Below are positions 1,095 through 2,833 of a stretch of DNA of 20,116 nucleotides, piece after piece. Source of the DNA: a virus. Where the stretch lies: the IMG/VR virus record IMGVR_UViG_3300030419_001061, positions 1 through 20,116 of that record. One strand, 5' to 3'. The stretch's first letter is position 1, and the number at the start of each line of letters is the position of its first letter. Both the position numbers and the translations under genes were made by a program. The notes under the pieces were generated by a model. That model searched no databases, was not told the DNA's origin, and was given only the letters and a program-made list of their open reading frames with translations.

Positions 1095-1134
1095 AAGAAA
1101 AAGGCCCATTGTGTTAACCAACCAATGGGCCTTT
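1095..1134 (-). terminator. Rho-independent terminator ending the structured RNA region
   Basis: A 12-bp perfect stem pairs 1100-1111 (AAAGGCCCATTG on the plus strand) with 1123-1134, with an 11-base loop. On the minus strand the stem is followed by a T-rich run TTTTTCTTT, partly contributed by the stem itself. It would stop minus-strand transcripts coming from gp41 and from the putative RNA promoter at 1280. No convergent plus-strand gene is present, so the minus orientation is the meaningful one. Confidence 0.8.
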
Positions 1135-1268
1135 GCAGTTATCAATGTTGGATTGGCTGAACCCCACAGGTCTAAAAGACTTCCCAATCAGTTCCGTCTG
1201 TTGTAGTTTGACTACACTCTTGCCTTCTAGTAACGGCGCCCCCACGTCGATACTAACACACATTGATA
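1095..1268 (-). ncRNA. Candidate structured non-coding RNA with its own promoter and terminator
   Basis: There is no convincing gene between 1272 and 999, but the stretch is highly structured. A 9-bp stem pairs 1260-1268 with 1140-1148 and closes a domain of about 129 bases. Inside it are CCGT/ACGG (1233-1236 with 1194-1197) enclosing a 6-bp hairpin with a 3-base loop (1211-1216 with 1202-1207), and GATTGG/CCAATC (1184-1189 with 1151-1156) enclosing GTCT/AGAC (1177-1180 with 1170-1173). This forms a three-way-junction-like layout. A terminator follows at once. TATAAATA at 1280-1273 would place a start near 1267, at the foot of the closing stem. I found no tRNA cloverleaf and could not match a riboswitch or ribozyme family I know. 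Structure was judged by eye. Confidence 0.55.
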
Positions 1269-1271
1269 TAT

Positions 1272-1472
1272 CTATTTATAATTTTCATCTGTAATGATTG
1301 CCACGTTTTCAACAAAAAAACGTGGTGTTTCTCCAGCAAAACCACCTCCAGACTCAAGAAAACGTGCTAATGCACTAGCTTCTTCTTTGAGTTCAAACTT
1401 CTCTATTATCTGATCAGTCTTCAACTCATGAACACAAAAGAGACCTTGTCTTTTTCTAACAGAATACTTCAA
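1272..1472 (-). CDS. Small hypothetical protein, 66 aa, TTG start, after gp41
   Basis: An unrecognised small basic protein (MKYSVRKRQGLFCVHELKTD at the N-terminus). The start is TTG at 1472, overlapping the TGA of gp41 (sequence TATTGA). It is supported by AAGGAG eight bases upstream, and no in-frame ATG exists nearby. A two-strand beta pattern (YSVRKRQGLFCVHEL...QIIEKFEL) followed by a helix is suggested. It is probably translated together with the helicase. Its final codons contain the TATAAATA box described separately. The function is unknown; linkage to gp41 does not by itself imply a replication role. Confidence 0.65.
   Translation of the reverse strand: MKYSVRKRQGLFCVHELKTDQIIEKFELKEEASALARFLESGGGFAGETPRFFVENVAIITDENYK
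1273..1280 (-). promoter_or_regulatory. T4-late-type promoter box TATAAATA
   Basis: The minus strand from 1280 to 1273 reads TATAAATA, an exact match to the T4 late promoter consensus. It overlaps the last codons and stop of the 66-codon gene. Late promoters start roughly six bases beyond the box, which here is about 1267, the first base or so of the closing stem of the structured RNA. The same eight bases also occur by chance within AT-rich coding DNA (for example 19178-19171), so position rather than sequence alone carries the argument. Confidence 0.5.
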
Positions 1473-2833
1473 TATACAAACTCCTTGAATTTATCGCCCA
1501 TTGCTTGTCCTGTTGGTGTTTCATCAAAGATAGCATCATCTAAGATGTCGTCTTGAGCATTCTGCTCAGTGTCATATAGAGTCATCTTTGCTCTGTCAAC
1601 TCCTATGACAAATCTCTTGTCCATAGCTGGATCACTGTATCTGTTCTTCAATTGTTTAACAAGTATCTGGTTCAAGTTATCTAACTCTTCTGTGCTAATA
1701 ATCGCAAACATAAAGTCAGCAGTCGCCGGCAAACCAAAGCTCTCCGAGGTGTCTTCAAGCCCCAAGTCACTAGACGTGTAACCCGATCGTGTTGTTTGTG
1801 TCGCAGAGACGATTGGCACGTCATATTCCACAGCGAGGCCTCGTAACTCTTCTGCAATTGCTTTGACATACGTGTACGAATTGACTCCTGCACCATATTT
1901 TATCCTCGCACTCATACATATGTTAAGATAGTCAATGTAGATTATATCTGGTACAAAGTTCTTCTTTACTTTCAGTTCTTGTAACAGATATCTGAAGTGG
2001 TTAGCTCCAGCTCCTGTAGTAGGATACTCTTTGATAACTATCTTACCTTTATAGTTATTCTCAATACGTCTTATCTTTTTATCGTATTCATCTTTCTCAT
2101 AACCTCTTACTTCATCTATTGTGCTACTCATCATATTAGCATCAATACGTTCTGCTATTCTTTCTTCTGCCATCTCTAATGTAATATACAATACATTCTG
2201 AGCATCTCTTAGATTAGCTGCAGCACAATGACACATAAACATACTCTTACCAACACCAGTACCAGCAAGACATATATTCAATGTCTTCTTAGACAAGCCA
2301 CCTTTGGTAATCTTATTCATTAGATCAAGATCAAACTTGATCTTTACTTCTTCAGTATGATAAAAGTCCCATCTTGCATCTGCATCTTCTATGAAGTCAT
2401 GACCGATATGTGGGTCAAAGCTAACACTAAGAGCATCAGATAGAATAGAAGGGAGTGCTCCCCTTCCTTTGTCAGTCTTGCCATCAATGATAGAGATTGA
2501 CTCCATAATGGCATTATATACTGCTTTGTCTTGACAGAATTTTTCTGTTTCATCTAACAACCAATCTTCATTGTTGTCGTTTGCCTCAAATCCTTTTACC
2601 AACTCATTAGCTGCTGTAAACTGTTCTTCTGATAACCCAGACTTATTACTAAGCTCAACAGATATAGCTTCTATGGTTGGTGGTTGATTATACTTATCAA
2701 AGTAATCAACAATAATCTTATAAACAGCTTTGTCTACTTGATCATGAAAGTACTCAGGCTTAAGGTAAGGTATTACCTTCCGAACGTAATCTTCATTCTG
2801 AGTCAGGCTGCTCAGTATCGTCCGTTCTATCAT
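1469..2833 (-). CDS. 41: Replicative DNA helicase, T4 gp41-like (DnaB family)
   Basis: A 454-residue DnaB/RecA-fold helicase that would unwind the fork in the 5' to 3' direction as a hexamer and work with a primase. Walker A is GTGVGKSM at 191-198. Walker B is the hydrophobic strand DIIYIDYLN with Asp301. A SATQTTR segment after Walker B matches helicase motif H4-type Gln/Thr residues. The N-terminal about 150 residues are the helical primase/loader-interaction domain. Length is close to T4 gp41. The ATG at 2833 has GGAG about six bases upstream and lies inside uvsX (41-base overlap). Gene order uvsX then 41 matches T4. The family call is secure; the assignment as gp41 rests on synteny as well as motifs. 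Confidence 0.93.
   Translation of the reverse strand: MIERTILSSLTQNEDYVRKVIPYLKPEYFHDQVDKAVYKIIVDYFDKYNQPPTIEAISVELSNKSGLSEEQFTAANELVKGFEANDNNEDWLLDETEKFCQDKAVYNAIMESISIIDGKTDKGRGALPSILSDALSVSFDPHIGHDFIEDADARWDFYHTEEVKIKFDLDLMNKITKGGLSKKTLNICLAGTGVGKSMFMCHCAAANLRDAQNVLYITLEMAEERIAERIDANMMSSTIDEVRGYEKDEYDKKIRRIENNYKGKIVIKEYPTTGAGANHFRYLLQELKVKKNFVPDIIYIDYLNICMSARIKYGAGVNSYTYVKAIAEELRGLAVEYDVPIVSATQTTRSGYTSSDLGLEDTSESFGLPATADFMFAIISTEELDNLNQILVKQLKNRYSDPAMDKRFVIGVDRAKMTLYDTEQNAQDDILDDAIFDETPTGQAMGDKFKEFVY

Follow-up and report, generated by a model that had tools for sequence, protein, structure and literature searches.

A new family of structured RNA encoded beside the gp41 helicase gene of uncultured T4-like phages

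Does the DNA behind the gp41 helicase gene of a T4-like phage encode an RNA of its own and, if so, how might that RNA act? The window analysed here is a 20,116-base stretch of a virus record (IMGVR_UViG_3300030419_001061, positions 1 to 20,116) whose minus strand carries DNA polymerase gp43, UvsX and gp41, a set that constitutes the replication cluster of T4-like, Kyanoviridae-type phages. A preliminary description had proposed that a candidate gene for a phage noncoding RNA, comprising a promoter, a closed structured domain and a terminator, lies next to gp41, and comparative evidence now supports this proposal. The features are listed below, all on the minus strand, with the evidence for each in parentheses; R1 and R2 are two covariance models introduced later in the text.

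1469..2833, minus strand: gp41, DnaB-type replicative helicase, conserved neighbour of the RNA (PHROG 19, E 3e-122)
1272..1472, minus strand: conserved 66-aa ORF between gp41 and the RNA, context outside the RNA (tblastn to relatives)
1273..1280, minus strand: TATAAATA, T4-late-type promoter box (sequence and position in homologues)
1098..1268, minus strand: noncoding RNA gene, predicted 5' end at ~1267 and 3' end in the terminator U-tract (R1 and R2 model matches)
1260..1268, minus strand: P1 closing stem, 5' strand, pairing with 1148-1140 (compensatory changes at all 9 model pairs, 91.7% paired)
1227..1256, minus strand: P2 hairpin, 1256-1251 with 1232-1227, inner CG pairs (fold; 4 of 4 pairs covary, 99.2% paired)
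1219..1225, minus strand: J2/3, conserved single strand AGGCAAG (AGGCA-G invariant in the 60-row alignment, partly imposed by the search pattern)
1202..1216, minus strand: P3 hairpin, 1216-1211 with 1207-1202 (fold; 4 of 4 pairs covary, 81% paired)
1190..1195, minus strand: J3/4, conserved single strand GGAACT, consensus GGAANW (GGAA invariant in the 60-row alignment)
1184..1189, minus strand: P4 stem, 5' strand GATTGG, pairing with 1156-1151 (anchor-fixed register, 98.3% paired)
1170..1180, minus strand: P4a, small variable hairpin in P4, 1180-1178 with 1172-1170 (relatives, several of which lack it)
1157..1169, minus strand: P4b, 3-bp stem 1169-1167 with 1159-1157 and 7-nt loop UGGGGUU at 1166-1160 (stem 100% paired)
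1151..1156, minus strand: P4 stem, 3' strand CCAATC (anchor-fixed register, model and MAFFT alignments)
1140..1148, minus strand: P1 closing stem, 3' strand (P1 covariation; 82.6% paired on the structure-independent MAFFT alignment)
1098..1134, minus strand: intrinsic terminator, 12-bp stem 1134-1123 with 1111-1100 and T run 1102-1098 (sequence and fold)

The order along the minus strand runs from gp41 through the 66-aa ORF, the RNA and a second promoter-like box to a small ORF (790-999), and the stop of the 66-aa ORF falls inside the TATAAATA box. The T4-late box that had been claimed at 1280-1273 is present on the minus strand; its distance from the closing stem, previously given as about six bases, was measured as 4 nt. 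T4-type late transcription starts about 6 nt past the box, placing the expected start at ~1267, at the foot of the closing stem as had been anticipated. This 9-bp stem (TATCAATGT, 1268-1260, with ACATTGATA, 1148-1140) is perfect, as described, and lies within the MFE structure, which also contains the P2 arm, the P3 arm and the terminator; the claimed 12-bp terminator likewise stood, with five T residues directly after its stem. The interior of the domain had to be redrawn. Three arms (P2, P3, and P4 with its two sub-hairpins) were found inside the closing stem instead of two nested ones, and the suggested CTAGAAG/CTTTTAG pseudoknot was rejected because CTTTTAG sits in the variable P4a, which in relatives reads GTCCGAAGGGAC or ATCTTCGGAT or is missing. 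Taken from this single sequence, the case is only moderate, since the fold, terminator included, has a z of -1.98 and is matched by 5 of 200 shuffles, and TATAAATA alone occurs in the 20-kb window at chance level (2 found vs 2.0 expected).

Searching IMG/VR with gp41 yielded 80 loci, and in about 20 of them an nhmmer search with the RNA stretch revealed a homologue behind the helicase gene, reaching down to approximately 65-70% gp41 identity. Patterns made from conserved pieces recovered many further homologues, at least 121 distinct ones overall; a regular expression (AGGCA[ACT]G ... GGAA ... TGGGG[AT]TC with an upstream TAAATA) gave 122 distinct sequences within the loci fetched, 121 of which were long enough for analysis. 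Another pattern, TTACTAGAAGGCAAGAG, matched a record nearly identical to the window and also five contigs unrelated to it, and was set aside. The contigs bearing the RNA are environmental fragments, and each long one holds a single convincing copy. Across the homologues a common architecture recurs, consisting of P1, P2, an AGGCA(M)G strand, P3, a GGAANW strand and P4 abutting P1; a 3-bp hairpin with a UGGGGUU loop lies within P4 of all homologues, a terminator comes after, and the extra hairpin P4a inside P4 belongs to some homologues only. In the window's clade P2 ends in a G-rich loop, UGGGGG (1244-1239, minus strand), which groups B and C do not have. The AGGCA-G and GGAA junction strands and the UGGGGUU loop are invariant in sequence and nearly all stem sequence varies, an invariance that is partly forced by the collection patterns; this is not so in the gp41-anchored set, where the UGGGGUU loop is constant in all complete, genuine matches among loci chosen independently of the loop pattern.

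Pairing was assessed with registers set by the anchors alone in the 121 sequences, the control being 3' strands dealt out among the sequences. In this anchor test, 98.3% of P4 cells were paired vs 75% in the control (maximum 78.4% in 500 trials), and the 3-bp P4b stem, in which CG, AU, UA and GC pairs all occur across the 121 sequences, was 100% paired vs 74% (maximum 78.5% in 500 trials). A structure-independent MAFFT alignment of 60 sequences gave 92.4% pairing for P1, P4 and P4b combined, vs 74.5% when shuffled and 35-46% when slid. The covariance model R1 derives from 19 sequences that all belong to a single clade, the window's own clade being left out, and recovers both the other groups and the window, where it matches 1275-1136 with 22.3 bits (E 4e-4 for the window alone, 0.017 for 0.78 Mb); R2, built from all 93 rows of the R1-search alignment, scores 47.1 bits on the window. 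The 93-row alignment has compensatory changes at 24 of 26 pairs, 94.4% of cells paired (vs 65.9% shuffled and 31-53% slid) and a covariation score of 0.760 vs 0.225, values that are biased towards the model to which the alignment was fitted, a bias from which the anchor and MAFFT tests are free. The covariance check put forward in the preliminary description therefore came out in favour of the structure, compensatory changes being abundant in the stems among relatives. A conserved reading frame, which would have spoken against an RNA gene, was not found: the spacers separating the invariant motifs have lengths of all three classes modulo 3, and the protein-coding reading was rejected because at most 67 of the 121 homologues keep any one frame open.

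The full TATAAATA box occupies the same place in 94 of the 121 homologues, all of which had been chosen for an upstream TAAATA, its median distance to the AGGCA motif being 39 nt. Of 120 homologues, 112 have a stem that resembles a terminator and comes with a run of T residues, vs 0 in shuffles. Because of these boxes and terminators, the 121 homologues and the strong covariation, the case is far above chance. Combined, a promoter and a terminator, both of them sequence predictions, the lack of a conserved frame and a covarying structure describe a free-standing noncoding RNA gene, with late transcription predicted from the conserved T4-late-type box.

The proposed Rfam scan (Rfam 15) returned no match at gathering threshold for the window and 18 related loci, and only weak chance matches up to E = 10 (window, and the relatives L065 and L185 from other groups). 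ARAGORN reported no tRNA and no tmRNA; the combination of a tRNA-like domain and a tag reading frame by which it recognises a tmRNA was not found, and there is no conserved frame. In complete records of 16 isolate or single-cell T4-like genomes, R2 gave no convincing match (KJ019105 (ACG-2014f), Melnitz-3, S-MS29, DSL-LC02, C48C1, DLP6, two AG-345 single-cell viruses, P-SSM2, MED4-213, T4, HTVC008M, S-PM2, KVP40, Syn9 and pf16); stray matches to KVP40 tRNA-Leu-2 (18 bits), a stretch inside a pf16 coding sequence (16 bits) and MED4-213 (14.5 bits) were put down to chance. The gp41-tree clade with most of the tested cultured relatives (ACG-2014f, S-MS29, DSL-LC02, P-SSM2, MED4-213, Melnitz-3 and C48C1) has no RNA, and inspection of ten gp41 loci without a model match revealed no diverged copy. 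Among 84,980 bacterial and archaeal species genomes (GTDB), 12 stretches fit the pattern and 0 fit R2. A blastn search of 50,697 phage records, for which five members of the family from groups A, B and C served as queries, found no genuine homologue, the matches being terminator-like or other short scraps only, and a plasmid search gave no match.

In the open-licence literature, the only noncoding RNAs found for related phages are manA and wcaG (PMC2864571), CfrI and PhotoRC-II (PMC9602691), a glutamine riboswitch and a two-piece tmRNA (PMC9004378), and abiF (PMC9964418); none of them agrees with the window's RNA in position or model, and an earlier description may exist outside that literature. 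The manA (RF01745) and wcaG (RF01761) RNAs are likewise structured RNAs of T4-like aquatic phages, mainly metagenomic, and lie in 5' UTRs of metabolic genes as presumed cis-regulators (PMC2864571), whereas the window's RNA is free-standing and gp41-linked, has another architecture, does not match RF01745 or RF01761 and does not occupy a 5' UTR. The Melnitz-type two-piece tmRNA with glutamine riboswitch is also a structured RNA of related Kyanoviridae-type phages; it lies beside a transcription coactivator and is placed under an early promoter by its authors (PMC9004378), and neither R1 nor R2 found anything in Melnitz-3. CfrI of cyanophage S-PM2, also a noncoding RNA of a T4-like cyanophage, is antisense to psbA (PMC9602691), and R2 does not match anywhere in S-PM2. 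Novelty is claimed for the family of RNA and for its architecture, a claim that does not extend to the mode of action. Few viruses are as well studied or as abundant as the T4-like phages, and this RNA gene is common to many of their uncultured lineages and absent in every cultured one examined; therefore, laboratory work could not have met it. The depth of its conservation implies a useful function, and many aquatic phages probably make a functional, hitherto unstudied RNA late in infection.

With regard to mechanism, the free-standing gene would give rise to a small structured RNA, about 140 nt long without its terminator, transcribed late, like virion genes, from the T4-late-type TATAAATA promoter and ending at its own terminator. 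The RNA is predicted to fold as a four-way, cloverleaf-like junction with P4 abutting P1, in which the UGGGGUU hairpin and the purine-rich junction may form a binding surface for a host or phage protein or ribonucleoprotein; late in infection, the RNA might then alter or sequester this putative partner. Pairing inside the RNA does not explain the invariant loop and strands. Variable stems around a few fixed motifs form the pattern of recognition by shape plus few fixed contacts, suggesting that action in trans through binding of a protein or ribonucleoprotein is the most likely; we infer trans action and partner binding on this basis and assign the reading of a late, trans-acting, protein- or ribonucleoprotein-binding RNA a probability of about 0.5. 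It is an even bet that the family represents a new class of structured RNA, common among uncultured T4-like phages, serving as a late cloverleaf ligand of a conserved host or phage machine via its UGGGGUU hairpin, and this machine may be that of translation, RNA decay, packaging or tRNA-directed defence. The fixed hairpin and junction strands offer concrete bait and mutants for a partner search, and the covariance alignment is a ready family for annotation.

The placement of the RNA bears on whether it is a free-standing gene or instead a cis-acting element, which could serve the gp41 operon as a 3' UTR stabiliser or transcription-termination device or could be a riboswitch controlling the gene that follows. 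In 143 loci the RNA shares the strand of gp41 and lies 97-2364 nt beyond the end of that gene; in 39 loci it is on the opposite strand, at a distance of 50-643 nt from gp41 (33 further RNA loci have no complete gp41 ORF). All opposite-strand phages fall into a single supported clade of the gp41 tree. Occurrence beside gp41 on either strand indicates a free-standing gene and no cis element, and a fold that is maintained despite reversed orientation speaks against cis regulation; in that clade the RNA cannot be within the gp41 mRNA. Additionally, separate promoter boxes serve the RNA and the gene that follows it, and no switching helix was seen that competes with the terminator; a cis-acting role is the least probable of the readings considered, even with the RNA always near gp41 where a locus holds gp41 and with a terminator behind it. 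In the opposite-strand clade (L267, L268, L153, L178, L184, L253 and others) the RNA is convergent with gp41, and many members share a GGGTGCGTG stretch at P1.

Other modes of action in trans compete with partner binding. A base-pairing small RNA would use the UGGGGUU loop, and also P2's UGGGGG loop in the window's clade, as a seed on C-rich sites of phage or host mRNAs and so block or favour translation late; we consider this unlikely, even though the 7-nt loop is exposed, invariant and G-rich and its stem covaries, the intrinsic terminator is typical of bacterial sRNAs, and the window's clade has a second G-rich loop. A small RNA pairing through a constant seed in its loop would show much the same features, and its targets could be outside the 20-kb window; AACCCCA and CTTGCCTY sites in the window are confined to the RNA gene itself, so an antisense target of the loop or of AGGCAAG, if any, lies outside. 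However, the conserved four-way core and two more invariant strands exceed the needs of an antisense loop, and group B and C relatives are without the second G-rich loop. Quite unlikely as well is a tRNA-like or ribosome-like mimic that engages tRNA-binding machinery or decoys a tRNA-cutting host defence, its 3-bp/UGGGGNN hairpin playing the part of a CCA-binding loop. One such loop is the P-loop of 23S rRNA, which UGGGGUU on a 3-bp stem may resemble, though over very few positions. The consensus structure shares the four-helix cloverleaf order of tRNA (RF00005), with P4 abutting P1 at a 0-nt step as the T stem abuts the acceptor, a coaxial arrangement that is a likeness of topology only; unlike tRNA, the RNA has no T loop, no CCA end and long conserved junction strands, J2/3 and J3/4 being far longer than in tRNA. 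The best stray match of R2 in KVP40 coincides exactly with tRNA-Leu-2, P1 aligning to its acceptor stem and P4 to its T stem, whereas the other dozen or so tRNAs in that stretch do not match R2, Rfam tRNA and rRNA models have no match with E up to 10, and neither ARAGORN nor RF00005 recognises the window's RNA. The RNA was not filed as a tRNA because the tRNA models fail and those other KVP40 tRNAs lack an R2 match; the cloverleaf order and the KVP40 cross-match nevertheless make a tRNA-like role worth testing. The pRNA of phage phi29 is a phage RNA of similar size with several helices, and a comparable RNA for virion assembly or DNA packaging, made late and used in the procapsid, would agree with the late-type promoter, the several covarying arms and loops and, in some relatives, the adjoining genes with late-type boxes. 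There is very little chance of such a role, as T4-type packaging to our knowledge needs no RNA, cultured T4-like relatives do without this one, no complementary loop pair for multimerisation was seen, and phi29 pRNA differs in both fold and phage lineage.

The KVP40 tRNA-Leu-2 alignment (L421:2357-2446) extends over the acceptor, anticodon and T stems with 18 bits and passes through AGAGGCAUGAG. Around the RNA gene, the second late-type box, CATAAATA (1063-1056, minus strand), stands after the terminator and ahead of ORF 790-999 and is kept in L003 and L011. The 66-aa ORF has a GGGFxGxTPxFF-like core that is kept among relatives in the window's clade, and a similar ORF at the equivalent position in L065 (4494-4688), which matches phrog_29065, a family of unknown function, was called homologous to it. 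On the 3' side of the RNA, group B phages carry a polynucleotide-kinase-like ORF or a DUF6267/cytidyltransferase-like ORF (L065:4877-5536, L057:6905-9130).
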